Source: a virus. From it: a stretch of 32,372 nt of DNA. The notes under the pieces are model-generated. The model was not told where the DNA came from and did no database searches. It worked only from the letters and a program-made list of their open reading frames with translations. Positions 16,815-32,372 of this stretch are shown here, piece after piece. Numbering within the stretch: position 1 is the stretch's first letter; each line of letters opens with the position of its first letter. The position numbers were made by a program, and so were the translations under genes. The stretch is from the IMG/VR virus record IMGVR_UViG_3300033144_001600, positions 1 to 32,372 of that record, one strand, 5' to 3'.

Positions 16815-17564
16815 TTAGGGCCTCCATCGAGTACCGCGATCACCAATATCATCGAATCCGGGAACGTCGATCACCAGTGGAATGTCCTGTGAGTACTGGT
16901 CATCAAACTCGCCACCGGGTAACTGATCGGTTTGCAGTTTGGACAGAAGGTAATCGTATTCGGCCTCCATGCCGCTGATGACCTCGGCCGCAGCTTCCTT
17001 ATTGCCGTACTTGATCGCCGCCTCACAGATGATCAGGCGATGAAAAGTTTCCGGCATTTCCGGGATATCGTTATTAGCCGCCAGAAGCGCCGGTCGCTTG
17101 TAGAACTCTGCGGTAAGCGCATAGGTCGAATTGCAGGGTACATTGAGCAGCAGGCTGCCATCGCGCTTTTGCGTGATGATGGATGGTTTGGTGTTGGTTG
17201 AGGGTGGTCCCGGTAACACATCAGCGCGAAAATCTTCCCACGACAGGTAGGACAGCGGGCCCGCTGATGTCAGGCTGCGATCAATCCAGAAACTTGAGCG
17301 ATCCCATCTTTTTGCGACCTCTTGGCCAGAGTGAACAGGAACAGCGTCGGACCCAATCGACAGCGTTTCGGCATACTCAACTGACAAATATCGCCAGTCA
17401 CTCCACATCAGGTTGATGTTGTTGTTGGCCTTGATGATCCAGTTGACGGCATTCCATAACTGCCCCTTTTGGCCGCTCACACTCTCCGGAACTGTGGCGC
17501 CCTGATTGGCGCCACCTATGCCCAGCTCAGTGACCAGCTCCTGTACGAGCGTCAAAAAGTTCAT
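16815..17564 (-). CDS. Head-to-tail adaptor protein (249 aa)
   Basis: I use the ATG at 17564. A GTG one codon earlier is also possible. The protein starts with a helix (FLTLVQELVTELGI), then WNAVNWIIKANNNINLMWSDWRYL, a signature of the adaptor family placed between the portal and nozzle in many short-tailed phages. Further conserved-type elements are the strand region SLLLNVPCNSTYALTAEFYKRP and PEMPETFHRLIICEAAIKYG, a helix repeated in adaptor proteins. The gene ends one base before the TTG of the nozzle gene, whose ribosome site lies inside its last codons, so the two are coupled. The stoichiometric partners would be the portal ring and the nozzle. Confidence 0.85.
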   Translation of the reverse strand: MNFLTLVQELVTELGIGGANQGATVPESVSGQKGQLWNAVNWIIKANNNINLMWSDWRYLSVEYAETLSIGSDAVPVHSGQEVAKRWDRSSFWIDRSLTSAGPLSYLSWEDFRADVLPGPPSTNTKPSIITQKRDGSLLLNVPCNSTYALTAEFYKRPALLAANNDIPEMPETFHRLIICEAAIKYGNKEAAAEVISGMEAEYDYLLSKLQTDQLPGGEFDDQYSQDIPLVIDVPGFDDIGDRGTRWRP

Positions 17565-17575
17565 CACCCACCACC

Positions 17576-19199: not shown

Positions 19200-20189
19200 T
19201 TAAGCGGCAGATTCCCACTTACAGATACGCGCTTGAACTGCGTCTGCCAAGTGGATAATGCCGAAACCGCCGAGGTAGTACCATGCCACACCCCTTGACC
19301 GGCCGAAGTCCGTTGGGATCTTACCGCGAATTTCCTCGGGGATCGCCAGAGCTTCTGCCACCGTATCTTCACCCAAGAAGAACACCCAGTCGGACTTGCC
19401 GTTATCCCATGCGTCCGCCACCCTAAAGGTGTAGGTCGCAGAATCAACAGCGCCGCCCTTGGCTACGTGTGTCTGCTCGGTGAAACGAATGCCTTCATAG
19501 CGCCCAATCTCGCCGTTCATTATGAACGAGAAGCCGGTCTCGACGTACTGGTGTACGGGTTCGAGATCCTTACGGAGTGCGCGGAAGGTTGTTGGACGGC
19601 CGATAGCGTAATAATCGTCGGCCATGTAAGGCGGGATGTCCCGTTCCTTCATGCCGTCAACAATCGAGCCGATGTGAAGTTTTCCGAGTGCGACGTTATT
19701 GGTGATACTGCAACCACCTTCCTCGAAAACCACGACCTCGACATCTGCGCCAGTGCTTGCTGGCGCGACCGTGAGGGGCGTCAGGTTGAACTGGTTGAAT
19801 GCCGCGCCGTCGAGAGTTTTCTTGGCGTCGTTCTTGAGAACCTTGTGAATAATTTCACTGACAGGCTGCTTGCTCAGATTGTCCAGCTTTCCGCTGTACG
19901 GTACTGAGTTGCCGTATTCAGTGATCGTGAGCTGACCCTGAGTGATCGTGTAATTGGTCTCAGGCATTGCTTCCTGCTCGTCCAGAGCATCGCCGCCTGT
20001 TGCTACATCACTGTAGACATTCCAATGGAACAATTCACCCTTGCCCAGCCCCTTGTCGGTGGCGTCTTTTGCATCACAGAAGTTGCGAAAACGAACAACA
20101 GGCTGCAGTGCAGTCCGCATTACGTTCGTCAGCTCATCGGTGTACATGTAGCCGCCGAGAGCGGATACCGCCCAAAGTTGACCAGCCAT
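19200..20189 (-). CDS. Major capsid protein, N4-gp56-family-like (329 aa)
   Basis: It forms the icosahedral shell with an HK97-type fold. I chose the ATG at 20189 because an AAGGAG site lies 6 bases upstream. The longer frame to 20303 overlaps the scaffold gene. Family-like features are an N-terminal arm (MYTDELTNVMRTALQPVVRFRNFCD), then a region TQGQLTITEYGNSVPYSGKLDNLS (about residues 85-110, the EYG...SxKL pattern of the N4-gp56 family). Next come a helical spine (KQPVSEIIHKVLKNDAKKTLDGA) and a late strand set IRFTEQTHVAKGGAVDSATYTF. The preceding gene looks like a scaffold, and the following genes are small capsid-associated proteins, which is the standard order. Confidence 0.92.
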   Translation of the reverse strand: MAGQLWAVSALGGYMYTDELTNVMRTALQPVVRFRNFCDAKDATDKGLGKGELFHWNVYSDVATGGDALDEQEAMPETNYTITQGQLTITEYGNSVPYSGKLDNLSKQPVSEIIHKVLKNDAKKTLDGAAFNQFNLTPLTVAPASTGADVEVVVFEEGGCSITNNVALGKLHIGSIVDGMKERDIPPYMADDYYAIGRPTTFRALRKDLEPVHQYVETGFSFIMNGEIGRYEGIRFTEQTHVAKGGAVDSATYTFRVADAWDNGKSDWVFFLGEDTVAEALAIPEEIRGKIPTDFGRSRGVAWYYLGGFGIIHLADAVQARICKWESAA

Positions 20190-20223
20190 ACATAACTCCT
20201 TCCGTGGGTTACATGTGTCGGGC

Positions 20224-21567
20224 CTATTGCTTTGGTTGGCCTCGACTTTCAACGCGCATACGTTGAATGTAACCCGAGTTCGATTCAGTTTTCTGCTCAG
20301 CAACTGGTGTATCTGAGAATCGCCCGGAGGCAGGGATTAGAGGCTGTACGACTGTTCGTGACTTTAGCGCCATGCGACCCGCCAGATCTGTGCCCGGTTG
20401 TGGTGCGGCCGGGATAACGGTAGTCACTGGTTCAAGTATCGGCGCGGGCTGCGGCGCTGGCGTTTGCTCCCCAAAGACATCGGCACGAACTCTCATGCCT
20501 GCTTCTCTGGTGATTTCGGCCAGTGGTCGCCCATACATAATTGGCTCAGCAGAAACTTCCTGCACCATATTGTATGTTGCGGTCCTGAGTACTCCGGACT
20601 GTAGATCCGAGAACTCTTCGACGAAAACAGTGTTGGCATCAAGCCGTTCCTTCTCTTTTGCATTAGCTCGCTGTATGGCGAGCTGTTGCTCTTGAGGGGT
20701 CGGCCCCTGCTCTACGGGTGTCACAGCTACATGCTGAACAGACCGTGTAACATCATCCTTAAATGATGTCAGGACCTCCGCAGCCTCGGTAATGGCTGCC
20801 TCTCGATCCCCGCTGTACATTGCGCCAACCAATCGCTCGGCCGCGTTCTGCACATTAACCGTATCGCCCTGATCGCCGGTAGGTGGTAGATCTGGCTCCG
20901 CAGTCGGTCGTGCTGTGGCCTGCGGTTGCTGCACATTCGCAGCTCTGGTTTGAAGCTCTTGATCGTATTGTCGGAGACTCGCCTCGTAGGTAGAGATCCG
21001 CTTCATACGTTCATCGGCTGCCACTGTCTTTTGGTAAGTAGCGATACCGCCTGCAGCATTTACTTCTGCCGTGGGCACTTCCCGCTTTTCACCATAGATA
21101 ACGATAGTAACCGTTTCGTTATTGGGGTCAAGTGCTGGTTGCGCAGGATCAGCAATCGGTGTGGCAGGTTGCGTGATCTGTTCCGGAGCTGCGCCGGTCT
21201 CTACCCAACCCTCTTTTAGCTCGCCATTACCATCGAAAGGATCCGTCTTGTTGTCTGGATCCATGCCGGCAGCTTCTGCATTCATGCGAGCGATGTGCGC
21301 TCGTTGCTCTGGCGTTGCCTCTTCGGAATCCACGGCATCCTGAATGTCGCGAGTCTCTTTGGCCTTCGAGTAAATGTCGTCGCGGCTTAACTCCCCGGGC
21401 TTTTCGGAGACCGTCTGCCCGGGCTCATGGACCTCGGGATCACCTTCCGGCTCTATCGAATGGCCGGCTGATTCGCCGTCGAGCATATCAGTATGATCTA
21501 CGGGCTCGCCCGGGGTAACGATCTCCTGTGTGCCTGAGTCGATGTCTTGTTTTGCTGGTGCGTTCAT
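20224..21567 (-). CDS. Scaffold-like capsid assembly protein (447 aa)
   Basis: It starts at the ATG at 21567, two bases after the stop of the upstream gene, and ends just ahead of the major capsid gene. The first 160 residues are acidic and disordered (Glu, Asp, Pro, Gly). Residues 165-225 (AEVNAAGGIATYQKTVAADERMKRISTYEASLRQYDQELQTRAAN) are a long amphipathic helix. A second helical block follows (AERLVGAMYSGDREAAITEAAEVLTSF and QRANAKEKERLDANTVFVEEF). The tail is basic (SGYIQRMRVESRGQPKQ), as scaffolds have to contact the coat. Acidic N-terminus, central coiled coil, basic C-terminus and position all fit an internal scaffold. It is not similar enough to name a family. Confidence 0.85.
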   Translation of the reverse strand: MNAPAKQDIDSGTQEIVTPGEPVDHTDMLDGESAGHSIEPEGDPEVHEPGQTVSEKPGELSRDDIYSKAKETRDIQDAVDSEEATPEQRAHIARMNAEAAGMDPDNKTDPFDGNGELKEGWVETGAAPEQITQPATPIADPAQPALDPNNETVTIVIYGEKREVPTAEVNAAGGIATYQKTVAADERMKRISTYEASLRQYDQELQTRAANVQQPQATARPTAEPDLPPTGDQGDTVNVQNAAERLVGAMYSGDREAAITEAAEVLTSFKDDVTRSVQHVAVTPVEQGPTPQEQQLAIQRANAKEKERLDANTVFVEEFSDLQSGVLRTATYNMVQEVSAEPIMYGRPLAEITREAGMRVRADVFGEQTPAPQPAPILEPVTTVIPAAPQPGTDLAGRMALKSRTVVQPLIPASGRFSDTPVAEQKTESNSGYIQRMRVESRGQPKQ

Positions 21568-21569
21568 CT

Positions 21570-21971
21570 TTAGTCCTCGATGTCATGTCCCATGTCGTCC
21601 ACCGCACGTAGCTCAGTTTCAGCCTCGCGGGCGGCCTTGAATATAGCATTGACGCTGGCGACAACATCAAAATTAGCGCGCATTCTCTGATGCTCCAGAA
21701 CCAGATCATCGTCAGGAGCAAGGCCAGCAAGTGTTTTGGTTTCGGTCATCAGCGCAAAGAACTCGATGGCGTTTGCCCACATGCCGTACAGCATTGTCCG
21801 CACGACCGCGGAGTTTGCCAGATCCCCTTCGATCTGGAATTTTTTCTGCACTACCTTGAATAGCTCGATCTCTCCCTCTGATTTGAGGTTATCTCTAAGC
21901 TCACGCTCAAGCACGTCATCGCTCATCAACGATGATTGGTCTACGCCGGGGCCTCTGTCTGGCTCAGCCAT
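21570..21971 (-). CDS. Small helical protein between portal/tRNA and scaffold (133 aa)
   Basis: The ATG at 21971 has GGAGAACC upstream, in the 3' flank of the tRNA, and the stop is two bases before the scaffold ATG. The protein is almost all helix (ELRDNLKSEGEIELFKVVQKKF, VVRTMLYGMWANAIEFFALMTETKTL, FDVVASVNAIFKAAREAETEL) and acidic, with no Cys. Small helical proteins at this site in other phages serve head assembly or portal/terminase contacts. I do not recognise its family. Confidence 0.75.
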   Translation of the reverse strand: MAEPDRGPGVDQSSLMSDDVLERELRDNLKSEGEIELFKVVQKKFQIEGDLANSAVVRTMLYGMWANAIEFFALMTETKTLAGLAPDDDLVLEHQRMRANFDVVASVNAIFKAAREAETELRAVDDMGHDIED

Positions 21972-21984
21972 GTGGTTCTCCGTT

Positions 21985-22059
21985 TGGTTGCGCTGGCAGG
22001 ACTTGCACCTACGACCTCCGGGTTATGGGCCCAGCGAGCTGCTACTGCTCCACAGCGCA
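21985..22059 (-). tRNA. tRNA-Met (CAU anticodon), initiator-type (fMet-like)
   Basis: A 75-base tRNA with encoded CCA folds into a full cloverleaf: 7-bp acceptor stem (TGCGCTG/CAGCGCA), 4-bp D stem (GAGC/GCTC), 5-bp anticodon stem (CTGGG/CCCGG, one T-G pair), 5-base variable loop and 5-bp T stem. The anticodon CAT is at 22027-22025. Initiator hallmarks are three G-C pairs at the bottom of the anticodon stem, A11-U24, and a weak U1-A72 end pair in place of the C1xA72 mismatch of E. coli. Oddities are C33 instead of U33, a 7-base D loop without the usual GG, and G55 in the T loop (TGCAAGT). It fills the gap between the portal stop and the next gene. Confidence 0.9.
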
Positions 22060-22064
22060 TCTGT

Positions 22065-24398
22065 TTATTGAATAGTCTCCGTCATTGACGGAATCATGCC
22101 ATAGCGATCCCTTGAAATCACGCCAGCCTTATCTTCCCCGGGCAGGTTAAACGCCCCTGATTCAGCCGGCGGCGTCTTGTCTTGGAGTGCCAGTTGGTAG
22201 TTGCGATCAGCCTCTTGGATCTCATGGCTCAGCGCCTCACGCTGCAAGAACAATTCCTCGCGCTTGATCTTCGACAGCTCGACCTTCACCATGCCGTTGA
22301 TCTGTTCGAGGCGATCCTTCATCTGCTCGATAGCGGCCTTGAGATTGCCATCGGCATTGGCCAGCATCATCTTCGCCTCGATAGCCATCTGCTCTTTCGC
22401 AAGGTTTCCTTGGATCTTCATATTCTCCAGTTCCATCTTGCCCTGCATTTCGGCCTGTTTCTCGGCCTGCTTGGACTCGATTATCTGCATGAGCTGCTGC
22501 ACCTGACCCTCCAGCTCTGCGATCTTCGGATCCTGCTCGTTGTCCGACAGGGATGGATAGAAGCGCACACCATCAGCATAGCCAAGGGCCCCGAATACTT
22601 CCTTCACCAGCTCGGCACCGTCCACCTTCTCAGCCAGTTGCGGCGCGAACTCTCGAATAGCACCCATGCCAAAGGCCAGCCGCTGCACCCGTTTCTCCGG
22701 GTTGGTCGCATCGAAGCCAACATTGACCTTGACCCTGATCGGCTGGGTGATCACATTCAGCACCGCCTGAATATCATCGACGCCGGCACGGTTGGCGGCC
22801 ACATGTAATACCGCCACATCAGTCTCATAGGCAGCTTCCAGCTCCACGATCTGTCGTAGCACCGGCTCGTACCACGTCTCAGAGAAGGTCCGGATATCAA
22901 ACTCGGTGATCATTGAGGCGCCAGCGCCCATCATTTCCATGCCGCCAACAGTCTTGTTCAGGCTGCTGTTTGACTGCACGGATCCTGAATTGAAATCACC
23001 CAAGATATCGTCAATATCCACGTTCAGACGATCCTGCTCTTCGTAGCTGGACCCGGTTACATCGCGAGTCTCCTGCACCTTCACGTCAGTGCCCGGGTTG
23101 CCCATCATGGTGACGGATCCGGCGACGTTCCTGATCAGGCTGCGAATATCAATGCCGGCGCCGCGCTTGGCAAAGTACCGCTTGTTCAGTGCCAGCTTGA
23201 CGTTATCGAGTCTCAGGTTAGCGATATCGTTGGTCTCTTCCTGCAGGCCATCGATCAGCTCAGGCTTGCCGGCCGGGTAGATCTTATGCGGCTCGATGTT
23301 GGTGTAGCCCATCACATACGGACGGTTGCCGGTCAGGTAAACCTCCGGAAGCGGCAACATGTCAGATAGTATGATCTCGCTGCCAATCGTATCCCAGCAG
23401 TAATCCTCGCCACCGATCCGCATGATGTGCTTGTGTACCCAGACGCTCTGGTGTGCGCGCACCATCGTATCGTTGTCGTACTTGTCGATACGATCACCCT
23501 CGCGGGCTTTCCTGACTGAATCCCAGTCCTGATGAATCGAGGCCGCCAGCATTCCCTGCACAACAGGTTTGTAATATGGCTTGCCAGTAATTGGGTTATT
23601 GCGCTGCTGCAGCTCCTGAATGGAATCGATGTACATCGGCACCATTTCGATCACGTATGGGCTGGTATTGACAGGATCCCGCCAGTCGCAGGCCGGGTCG
23701 AACCGCAGATTCTCAATCGGTACGTTATAGATGACCGGGCGATCCTCCAGCGGCTCTTCCTCTTCAACGGTCTGGCTATGTTCGCCGCCCATTTCATCAA
23801 GGTAAGTCTCTTCGTACTGGGTTTTCTTGGTGACGAACCGCCACTCTTGCTTGGTGATGCAGCAGCCGGTTGTATCGGCATCGGTCGCCGCACCGATCAC
23901 AGTCTGATACCAGTATGTCTGCTTCTGGTCGAGACGGAAGTTGGCCAGTGCCATGTGGATCTCAGCGGCCAGTACCTGCTGTGGATCCGCGTCATTCACT
24001 GGTGAGCAGTGCAATACATCCGAACTGGAGAAGAACGCCTTGGCCACGGACGCACTCGATTTCCTGATCGCAGTACGTGTTTTCGGGCGGAAGATCTTGG
24101 ACTTCTTGCGGTACTGCTCGGTGTAGTACTTCGAGCCCGGGGGGTGCTGGTTGTTGAATGCTCTCAGGTTGCGCTCGATCTGGTGGCGCATTGAGCTATC
24201 CCACCACGTCTTTGAGCTGTAGAACGCCTCCCGGGACAGGGTTATCAACGTATCCTCGTACTGCCGGTCGCTATCCTGTGGATCCTTTTCAAAGTGATCC
24301 ACCATGCCCACAGACTCGGCCGGGAGCGTAGTGCGGTCGCCCTCAACTACCGGGCTGAAATGTTTGTCGCCTCTAACTAGCGCCGTCGAGCCCGCCAT
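22065..24398 (-). CDS. Portal protein (777 aa)
   Basis: Twelve copies form the channel through which DNA is packaged and leaves the capsid. The ATG at 24398 has a GGAGAGG site and lies inside the last codons of the upstream gene. The protein has the large podovirus-portal layout. An N-terminal wing leads to the stem/clip region; typical segments are KTWWDSSMRHQIERNLRAFNN, KIFRPKTRTAIRKSSASVAKAFFSS, IENLRFDPACDWRDPVNTSPYVI, and DIANLRLDNVKLALNKRYFAKRG followed by IRNVAGSVTMMGNPG. Residues 627-740 are a long coiled coil (ELEGQVQQLMQIIESKQAEK onward), the barrel-like C-terminal extension seen in large portals. The neighbours are pre-portal small genes and a tRNA. Confidence 0.93.
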   Translation of the reverse strand: MAGSTALVRGDKHFSPVVEGDRTTLPAESVGMVDHFEKDPQDSDRQYEDTLITLSREAFYSSKTWWDSSMRHQIERNLRAFNNQHPPGSKYYTEQYRKKSKIFRPKTRTAIRKSSASVAKAFFSSSDVLHCSPVNDADPQQVLAAEIHMALANFRLDQKQTYWYQTVIGAATDADTTGCCITKQEWRFVTKKTQYEETYLDEMGGEHSQTVEEEEPLEDRPVIYNVPIENLRFDPACDWRDPVNTSPYVIEMVPMYIDSIQELQQRNNPITGKPYYKPVVQGMLAASIHQDWDSVRKAREGDRIDKYDNDTMVRAHQSVWVHKHIMRIGGEDYCWDTIGSEIILSDMLPLPEVYLTGNRPYVMGYTNIEPHKIYPAGKPELIDGLQEETNDIANLRLDNVKLALNKRYFAKRGAGIDIRSLIRNVAGSVTMMGNPGTDVKVQETRDVTGSSYEEQDRLNVDIDDILGDFNSGSVQSNSSLNKTVGGMEMMGAGASMITEFDIRTFSETWYEPVLRQIVELEAAYETDVAVLHVAANRAGVDDIQAVLNVITQPIRVKVNVGFDATNPEKRVQRLAFGMGAIREFAPQLAEKVDGAELVKEVFGALGYADGVRFYPSLSDNEQDPKIAELEGQVQQLMQIIESKQAEKQAEMQGKMELENMKIQGNLAKEQMAIEAKMMLANADGNLKAAIEQMKDRLEQINGMVKVELSKIKREELFLQREALSHEIQEADRNYQLALQDKTPPAESGAFNLPGEDKAGVISRDRYGMIPSMTETIQ

Positions 24399-29678: not shown

Positions 29679-29706
29679 ATTATACTGCTTTACTTATTGG
29701 GTGCAA
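29679..29706 (-). promoter_or_regulatory. Sigma-70-type promoter for the exported-protein and structural operon
   Basis: On the minus strand TTGCAC (29706-29701), a 16-base spacer and a perfect TATAAT (29684-29679) point leftward. The -35 box and spacer overlap the last codons of the peptide deformylase gene. Transcription would start near 29672, 18 bases before the leader ATG. This is the best-looking promoter of the late block. Confidence 0.7.
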
Positions 29707-30190
29707 CGTCAGCTATGTTGATGCCATTCAGGTGATCGATCTCGTGCTGGATGCAGGCAGCCTGTGCTTTCTTGCCGCCAACCTTGATACAGCCGCCCCA
29801 GCGATCATAGCCCTCGATGGTGACGCGAGCGTCCCGGCCAATCCTGACAGTATGCCCGGGCCAGCTCAGGCATCCTTCGTCACTGTAATAAGTGCCGCCC
29901 CACTGCTTGATGATCACCGGGTCAACGATCTCGATCTCGCAGTGTCCCGGCACCTTGCAGATGATTGCGCGCACCGGGGATCCGATCTGCGGTGCAGCCA
30001 GACCCCAGCCACCGTACTTGTACAGGGTGCGCCACATGTCATCGAATAACATCCAGATATCAATGCCACGCGGGTTAATCTTATCGATAGGATCACAGAC
30101 GAGCTGCAGCCGTGGATCCGGGTAATACAGCAGTGGCAGGGTTGGCTCCGGGCGATGCTGCACGAAATCCTTGACCGATGGACTAGGCAC
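29690..30190 (-). CDS. Peptide deformylase (166 aa)
   Basis: It removes the formyl group from the N-terminal Met of new bacterial-type proteins using a bound metal (Fe2+ or Zn2+). All three family motifs are present: motif 1 GWGLAAPQ (residues 61-68), motif 2 EGCLS (105-109, ligand Cys107) and motif 3 HEIDH (149-153, ligands His149 and His153, catalytic Glu150). The start is a GTG (30190-30188) that overlaps the stop of the regulator gene and has no visible ribosome site, so translation is coupled. At 166 residues it is near the bacterial length, whereas many phage deformylases are shorter, lacking the C-terminal helix. It sits in the same genome as an initiator-type tRNA. Confidence 0.95.
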   Translation of the reverse strand: MPSPSVKDFVQHRPEPTLPLLYYPDPRLQLVCDPIDKINPRGIDIWMLFDDMWRTLYKYGGWGLAAPQIGSPVRAIICKVPGHCEIEIVDPVIIKQWGGTYYSDEGCLSWPGHTVRIGRDARVTIEGYDRWGGCIKVGGKKAQAACIQHEIDHLNGINIADVAPNK

Positions 30191-31399: not shown

Positions 31400-31897
31400 T
31401 TATCTTCCCGCACTTTTAAGGGCCCTGCCAGACAGGGCCCTTATTTTATGGTCCCGGTTAAGCCACGCGAACTCCCCGAACTCAACCCATGCCGCGTCGT
31501 CGTAAACCTCGGCCGCTTCCTCGGCGGTCAGGTAATAACCGAGCGACCTGTAGCACAATCTAGCCTGATACCGCTTAATTCTCTTGTGGTCATCGGTCAT
31601 CTTTCTAACGCCTTTGTAGCCACTCACTGGCGCCCGGTTCATCAGGTTCTGCTGGTGGGTGCATATCCTGAGATTGCTGCGGCGGTTATCCAAGCCGTTA
31701 CCATTGATATGATCAATCTCCATCCCTACGGGAGCTGGAAGGATGGCGTTGTGCATCCTTACGTTTTTACCCATTGTTTGACGATAGGCGTATTGCTTAT
31801 ATTTTTGCACAAGAGCCGTCCACTTAACCTCGGCCAAGTGAGCATCGCAGTCATCTATAATCGCCTCAAAGCCGCGTGTTAATTGTATTAAAATCAT
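31400..31897 (-). CDS. HNH endonuclease with AP2-like DNA-binding domain (165 aa)
   Basis: Homing-type nucleases of this class cut DNA and spread their own gene. I use the ATG at 31897. A TTG at 31909 overlaps the terminase stop. Residues 46-90 carry the HNH fold: VRMHNAILP (His49), MEIDHINGNGLDNRRSNLRICTHQQN (Asp62-His63, then the Asn/His finger). Residues about 93-142 match the AP2-like DNA-binding repeat (GYKGVRKMTDDHKRIKRYQARL...GYYLTAEEAAEVYDDAAW). It is just downstream of the terminase, a common place for HNH genes, which can either be parasites or assist DNA cutting for packaging. The last codons are built from the plus-strand terminator stem. Confidence 0.9.
   Translation of the reverse strand: MILIQLTRGFEAIIDDCDAHLAEVKWTALVQKYKQYAYRQTMGKNVRMHNAILPAPVGMEIDHINGNGLDNRRSNLRICTHQQNLMNRAPVSGYKGVRKMTDDHKRIKRYQARLCYRSLGYYLTAEEAAEVYDDAAWVEFGEFAWLNRDHKIRALSGRALKSAGR
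31418..31442 (+). terminator. Strong intrinsic terminator of the rightward operon
   Basis: AAGGGCCCTG / CAGGGCCCTT form a perfect 10-bp stem with a 5-base loop (CCAGA), followed on the plus strand by ATTTTAT. It stops rightward transcription 54 bases after the stop of the papain-like gene. On the minus strand only A residues follow the stem, so it should not stop leftward transcripts. The stem lies inside the last codons of the convergent HNH gene. Confidence 0.9.
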
Positions 31898-31901
31898 ATA
31901 C

Positions 31902-32372
31902 TTAGTCAACTTCTGGTTCGAGATCCGCGCCCATTTCGCCGGCCAGCTTCACAGGCACTGGGTGCGCAAACGTCAGCGCCAGTGCATCGCCGGTATCCGG
32001 GCTCGGCAGTCCACGCTTGGACATATCCTCTTTTGACTCCAGCCGCATACGCATACCAATGTCAAAGTTAAGCATCGGCCCGATCAGATCCTCGAACAGC
32101 TCGTTATTGTCCGGGATGCTGCCGGTCTCCAACCACTTAGCGCAGCGGTGCCAGATCTCGACGCGCGGATTATAGTAAGTCAGCGGCTCCATAACCATCG
32201 AGCGGTCGCCCCAGTAGATCGGGATCACCTGATCGTATCCATTCTGTACCAGTAATAGCCAGACGCCGTGGCCATAGCCAGTGGCGTCAATGAATACGAT
32301 GTCAGGCTCCCACTCGTTGATGGCCTGACCGATGTAGCCGGCGATGACGTTGTGATTGGCATCCTGCAGGTT
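31902..32372 (-). CDS. Terminase large subunit, C-terminal nuclease part (partial, 156 aa)
   Basis: The terminase packages DNA into the head. Its C-terminal RNase H-like nuclease cuts the concatemer. The frame enters from the window's right edge on a codon boundary and ends at TAA. The segment PDIVFIDATGYGHGVWLLLVQ carries an acidic strand (Asp of IDATG). QVIPIYWGDRS is the usual strand after it. The end, MRMRLESKEDMSKRGLPSPDTGDALALTFA, is the classic last motif with the acidic D..DA residues. A short hydrophilic tail follows. The ATPase part lies outside the window. It overlaps the TTG of the HNH gene. Confidence 0.92.
   Translation of the reverse strand, partial: NLQDANHNVIAGYIGQAINEWEPDIVFIDATGYGHGVWLLLVQNGYDQVIPIYWGDRSMVMEPLTYYNPRVEIWHRCAKWLETGSIPDNNELFEDLIGPMLNFDIGMRMRLESKEDMSKRGLPSPDTGDALALTFAHPVPVKLAGEMGADLEPEVD

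Follow-up and report, generated by a model that had tools for sequence, protein, structure and literature searches.

The DNA analysed here, called the window below, is a 32,372-base metagenomic fragment of a virus (IMG/VR record IMGVR_UViG_3300033144_001600) in which most of the large genes lie on the minus strand. ARAGORN reports a single tRNA in it, with a CAU anticodon, on the minus strand at 22059-21985. Directly upstream of the tRNA lies the gene of an SU10-type portal protein (22065..24398, minus strand; Pfam PF23899, 1e-31; PHROG 1216, 1.5e-21), whose stop codon is found 5 nt before the tRNA starts. Directly downstream the ORF list gives a 133-aa protein with no assigned function (21570..21971, minus strand), which adjoins the portal gene also in three related viral contigs, L002, L003 and L004. 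The CCA of the tRNA ends 13 nt ahead of the start of this ORF, and the gap contains a GGAG ribosome-binding site. Since an SU10-type adaptor protein (16815..17567, minus strand; Pfam PF24175, 2.6e-10) and the major head protein (19200..20303, minus strand; PHROG 1357, 4.2e-12) are encoded nearby, the tRNA lies in the structural module of the virus. A promoter and terminator scan gave no promoter match near the tRNA, no minus-strand terminator match and one terminator-like match on the plus strand at chance level. Two further genes are a peptide deformylase (29690..30190, minus strand; Pfam PF01327, 6.8e-35; PHROG 2890) and, near the contig end, an HNH endonuclease (31400-31909, minus strand; Pfam PF13392).

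The tRNA reads, from 5' to 3', UGCGCUG UG GAGC AGUAGCA GCUC G CUGGG CCCAUAA CCCGG AGGUC GUAGG UGCAAGU CCUGC CAGCGCA A CCA, so that the CCA is encoded in the gene itself (21985-22059). In a covariance-model check it scores 54.3 bits against Rfam RF00005 (cut-off 29), covers the model from 1 to 71 and adopts the full cloverleaf. It is a real and complete tRNA gene. Thermodynamic folding alone shows no signal: the ViennaRNA minimum for this tRNA is not the cloverleaf, with a z-score of -0.59. What sets the molecule apart are its loops. The anticodon loop CCCAUAA carries C33 in place of U33, as a preliminary description of this DNA had noted, the D loop AGUAGCA (7 nt) contains A18 and G19, the variable loop is AGGUC, and the T loop UGCAAGU has G55. 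Few positions of tRNAs are as conserved as U55 and G18. Three near-universal bases, U33, G18 and U55, are replaced by C33, A18 and G55; the replaced bases are customary in tRNAs in general, are not specific to initiators and are not needed to pass the Rfam family cut-off.

The tRNA was described from the start as having initiator features (CAU, three G-C pairs and A11-U24) and U1-A72 instead of C1xA72, and parse and alignment confirm all of these. The acceptor and D stems contain U1-A72, G2-C71, C3-G70, G10-C25 and A11-U24, and the anticodon stem CUGGG/CCCGG contains G29-C41, G30-C40 and G31-C39. G2-C71 and C3-G70 are among the formylase elements of the acceptor stem; both are present, and so is R11-Y24, in the form of A11-U24. 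Initiators are recognised by the three G-C pairs, by a 1-72 pair that is weak or missing and by the formylase elements of the acceptor stem, with R11-Y24 and 1-72 serving as recognition elements of the formylase (PMC9976931). The window tRNA has the CAU anticodon and the three consecutive G-C pairs (29-41, 30-40 and 31-39), and its weak U1-A72 is in keeping with the lack of a strong 1-72 pair, although the canonical C1xA72 mismatch itself is missing. We compared 87 different viral CAU tRNAs, the majority of which had been chosen solely by their anticodon and T arms: a G-C pair is found at 1-72 in 2/87 and at 2-71 in 82/87, C-G at 3-70 in 77/87 and A-U at 11-24 in 58/87. As a class, therefore, these viral tRNAs keep 1-72 weak and 2-71 and 3-70 strong, which matches the expectation for initiators. 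Identity elements and comparison together support the assignment of the window tRNA to the initiator type. With bacterial tRNA-fMet it shares CAU, the three G-C pairs of the anticodon stem, A11-U24, G2-C71, C3-G70, a weak first pair, the 5-nt variable loop AGGUC and A73; it differs in U1-A72 (usually C1xA72), C33, the 7-nt D loop with A18, and G55. In the open literature, to which our search was confined, we found no paper that describes A18-G55 or treats phage initiator tRNAs as a class of their own.

When viral contigs were scanned with the portal protein, three close relatives emerged, L002, L003 and L004, whose portal proteins are 77%, 65% and 64% identical to that of the window. L003 and L004 carry a CAU tRNA at the same portal seam, 1 and 14 nt past the portal stop. 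In L002 the seam is empty and the ribosome-binding site of the next gene follows directly at the portal stop. Each of the two related tRNAs is identical to the window tRNA at 55 of 76 aligned positions (about 72%). All three same-seam tRNAs have a complete cloverleaf, CAU, C33 and GGG in the anticodon stem (pairing with CCC in the window and L004 and with CUC in L003), and none has a strong 1-72 pair (U-A in the window, UxU in L003 and CxA in L004). The 11-24 pair is A11-U24 in the window and the elongator-like C11-G24 in L003 and L004. When 18 viral CAU tRNAs are aligned without gaps, both sides have changed in 15 of 23 pairs (15-48 included), and 96.4% of the cells pair compared with 79.1% in shuffles, none of 500 of which reaches the observed value; sliding the partners destroys the signal. 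Because diverged tRNAs with compensated stems and C33 occupy the same seam in L003 and L004, the window tRNA is, judged by this comparison, a maintained phage gene and not a scrap of an attachment site. Homologues lacking an intact cloverleaf, or the absence of any related phage carrier, had been named in the preliminary description as signs to the contrary; the tRNAs found in L003 and L004 are intact and lie at the same place.

The D loop AGUAGCA can be aligned column by column with AAUGGCA of L004 and with AGYGGYA of other phages, which assigns A18-G19 to the window tRNA. C56 is kept, so that the outer elbow pair, G19-C56, remains intact, as does the Levitt pair, G15-C48. One contact is replaced, G18-U55 by A18-G55, and not the whole elbow. 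The earlier statement that GG at 18-19 and U55 are changed is therefore correct for G18 and U55 but not for G19. L003 and L004, although of the same portal family, have the normal 18-55 pair. The two positions change together. The 87 viral CAU tRNAs comprise 10 with A18-G55, 76 with G18-U55, none with A18-U55 and one ambiguous exception (Fisher 2.7e-12, a p-value that ignores the shared ancestry of sequences that are not phylogenetically independent), position 18 in longer D loops being assigned by rule. In the subset of identical length, where no choice of alignment enters, the coupling is 6/6 and 13/13. As a control we used 284 non-CAU bystander tRNAs in the fetched loci, which had not been selected on their own T loop: an A18-G19 D loop goes with G55 in 18/18, from 10 loci and several isotypes. 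In the same control, G18-A19 goes with U56 in 7/7; this swap of the outer elbow pair, from G19-C56 to A19-U56, occurs in viral tRNAs of L027, L041, L156, L162, L171 and L173. So both elbow contacts are swapped in compensated form in mobile tRNAs, and since A18-G55 recurs in different isotypes, its distribution argues for repeated events. The two explanations offered at the outset, co-evolution or decay, can now be weighed: 18 changes with 55 across sequences and isotypes in a near-perfect coupling, which supports co-evolution, and decay is not supported, the cloverleaf being preserved in the homologues found at this locus.

G55 cannot be converted into pseudouridine 55, and an A at position 18 does not offer the usual Gm18 site. 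A18-G55 tRNAs are hence unable to take pseudouridine 55, and the loss of these targets may have consequences for the window tRNA. Its T loop, U54-G55-C56-A57-A58, matches the UGNRA form, with A18 as the A from outside. The G of UGNRA T-loops commonly contacts an A that lies outside the loop (PMC2258182), an intercalating A is accepted by the UGAAA T loops of the FMN riboswitch (PMC3764141), and in tRNA the intercalating base is residue 18 (PMC4810234). The window tRNA thus has the U-G-N-R-A loop and the outside A in common with the FMN and TPP riboswitches; it differs from them in that the motif sits in a tRNA elbow, whose geometry is a predicted one. It seems from this likeness that the phage tRNA has exchanged one T-loop module for another.

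G55 initiators are rare in the cellular genomes sampled. The G55-initiator pattern was found in the seed genome only, both among 286 genomes of a Parcubacteria class and among 299 genomes of another phylum. In a separate scan of cells for G55 initiators, tRNAs made up 5 of the 118 stretches among the matches listed, from which no rate can be derived. The Parcubacteria seed, whose family consists of 3 genomes only, is a clear A18-G55, and the second seed has a longer D loop in which position 18 is uncertain. Neither seed, both being draft genomes, shows any other initiator anticodon arm, which suggests that cells, too, can have a G55 initiator as their own. In the Parcubacteria draft genome (L249, 7607) the A18-G55 initiator is the only initiator anticodon arm of the assembly, so that this cell may possibly depend on a swapped elbow. 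The idea that such an elbow has become fixed in a cellular lineage was rejected, the pattern being confined to the seed genome in both samples. In 101 genomes of one phylum, the U33 initiator arm was found in 96 and the C33 pattern at control level. In viral scans there were at least 120 matches for C33 with U55, although no reliable frequency of G55 in phage initiators follows from these scans. C33 is a recurring trait of phage initiators and stays at background level in the cells sampled.

Initiator tRNAs often stand alone in phages: the initiator is the only tRNA in 27 of 43 initiator-bearing viral contigs. That elongators are the usual phage cargo, as had been stated, may hold overall, but lone initiators recur. 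Where their neighbours are recognised, these are often packaging or head genes: a terminase in L046, Donnerlittchen, QDWS359 and Elanor, the portal gene in the window, L003 and L004, a head protein in L075 and a head protease in L150. In L021 an integrase is near, and the initiator tRNA of that phage may also serve as its attachment site. Phage-borne CAU initiators are also known from the isolates Donnerlittchen (ON529854, Janthinobacterium), QDWS359 (ON331942, Stenotrophomonas), Elanor (ON189045, Xanthomonas) and D3 (AF165214, Pseudomonas). In the first three, all Bradleyvirinae, the tRNA likewise lies behind a packaging gene, that of the terminase large subunit, and Donnerlittchen and D3 have C33 as in the window. 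However, these isolates belong to other phage families, have other genes around the tRNA and keep the normal G18-U55 elbow; among the BLAST matches examined, the A18-G55 initiator was not found in cultured phages or plasmids. The phiLM21-like prophages of Sinorhizobium meliloti are comparable in that they measure about 53 kb and carry one gene for tRNA-Met or tRNA-fMet; they are temperate, and the passages describing them mention no loop changes (PMC12429752). A18-G55 recurs in several isotypes in tRNA arrays on putative mobile elements, for example in the Verrucomicrobia-assigned arrays L188 and L261, in which many tRNAs of different isotypes have it. Those arrays are long, whereas the window has a lone initiator.

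We regard it as probable that the window encodes a working initiator tRNA behind the portal gene, which is processed, charged and formylated by the host, adds to the host initiator and carries compensated loop variants. The tRNA would be cut from the late structural-operon transcript by the tRNA-processing enzymes of the host. With methionine attached by host MetRS and the formyl group by host Fmt, it might then add to or replace the host initiator while virion proteins are being made. C33 and A18-G55 would be compensated variants, the UGNRA-type T loop taking the intercalating A in the manner of rRNA and riboswitches while G19-C56 and G15-C48 stay in place. The advantage could be supply, and initiator supply during infection is plausible, or it could be a spare initiator that is poorly recognised by the tRNA nucleases and modification enzymes of the host. 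A different start codon choice, which had been considered earlier, found no support and was dropped, the anticodon being plain CAU. Against a working gene stands L002, the nearest relative by its portal protein, which lives without the tRNA, and the loss of the near-universal U33 and U55 could weaken tRNA function.

Why the loops changed might be explained by evasion of nucleases, which would refine the favoured reading. A spare initiator with C33 and an altered elbow may escape host toxins such as VapC, which cut the anticodon loop of tRNA-fMet, and so keep initiation going; we put this forward tentatively. C33 does recur in phage initiators, at background level in the cells sampled, but to our knowledge no nuclease reads U33 or U55 of initiators, which counts against the idea. 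Changes in the anticodon loop of phage tRNAs have been proposed to escape host nucleases (PMC10264068), and an enteric VapC cleaves initiator tRNA at the step from A38 to C39 (PMC4105405); however, the loop around this cut site is unchanged in the window tRNA, and phages that encounter enteric VapC generally avoid a tRNA-fMet of their own, as one of these two papers also states. A wider hypothesis, which we hold with somewhat more reserve, would be that mobile and viral tRNAs repeatedly swap G18-U55 for the riboswitch-type A18-G55, thereby losing the pseudouridine-55 target and the usual Gm18 site, and that phage initiators add C33. The result might be a second initiator that is poorly read by the modification, surveillance and nucleases of the host and still used by the ribosome. 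Taken more generally, the compensated exchange of elbow contacts in mobile tRNAs and the lone C33 initiators of small phages go beyond the original finding. A recurrent compensated replacement of 18-55, concentrated in phage and mobile tRNAs, would tell apart the structural part of the elbow and the part that marks it for the enzymes of the host, and the lone initiators of small phages point to translation initiation, beyond codon supply, as a step that phages reinforce.

Peptide deformylase removes the formyl group that is added to the initiator. It might be possible that the two window genes form a kit, in which an entry tRNA for formyl-Met and a formyl-removing enzyme keep up with late protein output. 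Both genes lie within the 32-kb window, the three active-site motifs of the deformylase (GWGLAAPQ, EGCLS and HEIDH) are all present, and the genome of Caulobacter phage CcrColossus likewise combines a peptide deformylase gene with an initiator-like tRNA-Met. We nevertheless think such a kit improbable: the window has no formyltransferase domain, and deformylase occurs in many phages (158 records). With deformylase in 2/50 initiator-bearing viral records and 1/49 controls, it is not enriched; there is no general link between deformylase and initiator, and an obligate partnership was rejected.

Less credible still is a tRNA shape that acts as a processing signal between the portal mRNA and the downstream mRNA, with decoding secondary or absent. 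The tight packing at the seam (5 nt past the portal stop, 13 nt to the next start with its ribosome-binding site), the tRNAs of L003 and L004 at the same seam and the lack of a promoter or minus-strand terminator match nearby would suit such a role. Yet a processing signal needs neither CAU nor the GGG stem, A11-U24 or a weak 1-72 pair, all of which are kept, the initiator tRNAs of other phages sit elsewhere or alone between genes, and L002 manages without a tRNA. We consider it very unlikely that the molecule is an elongator Met tRNA or an Ile2 (lysidine) tRNA: CAU would fit any of the three classes, U1 and A72 form a Watson-Crick pair and the orthologues of L003 and L004 have the elongator-like C11-G24, but the three G-C pairs, A11-U24 and the UxU or CxA at 1-72 of the relatives are marks of initiators. 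A decayed host tRNA or an attachment site captured at integration, as might be imagined from the L021 viral contig with its A18-G55 initiator 270 nt from an integrase, can hardly be upheld for a tRNA that lies inside a head module, with compensated stems, an encoded CCA and a coupled 18-55 change, in a window (itself a fragment) that gave no integrase match among the ORFs scanned, and the intact orthologues of L003 and L004 largely refute it.

Several observations were made beside these questions. Met(CAU) tRNAs that lack public annotation were detected by ARAGORN or by our parser in Elanor (L327), Bordetella phage PHB04 (L305), Nocardia phage NTR1 (L331) and Bordetella phage PHB09 (L332). In PHB09 the CAU tRNA lies close to a BrnT family toxin gene (1489-1563 and 1832-2098). 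In Stenotrophomonas phage QDWS359 (L303), an annotated RNA pseudouridine synthase is encoded at 838-1311, just before the terminase and the tRNA-fMet.
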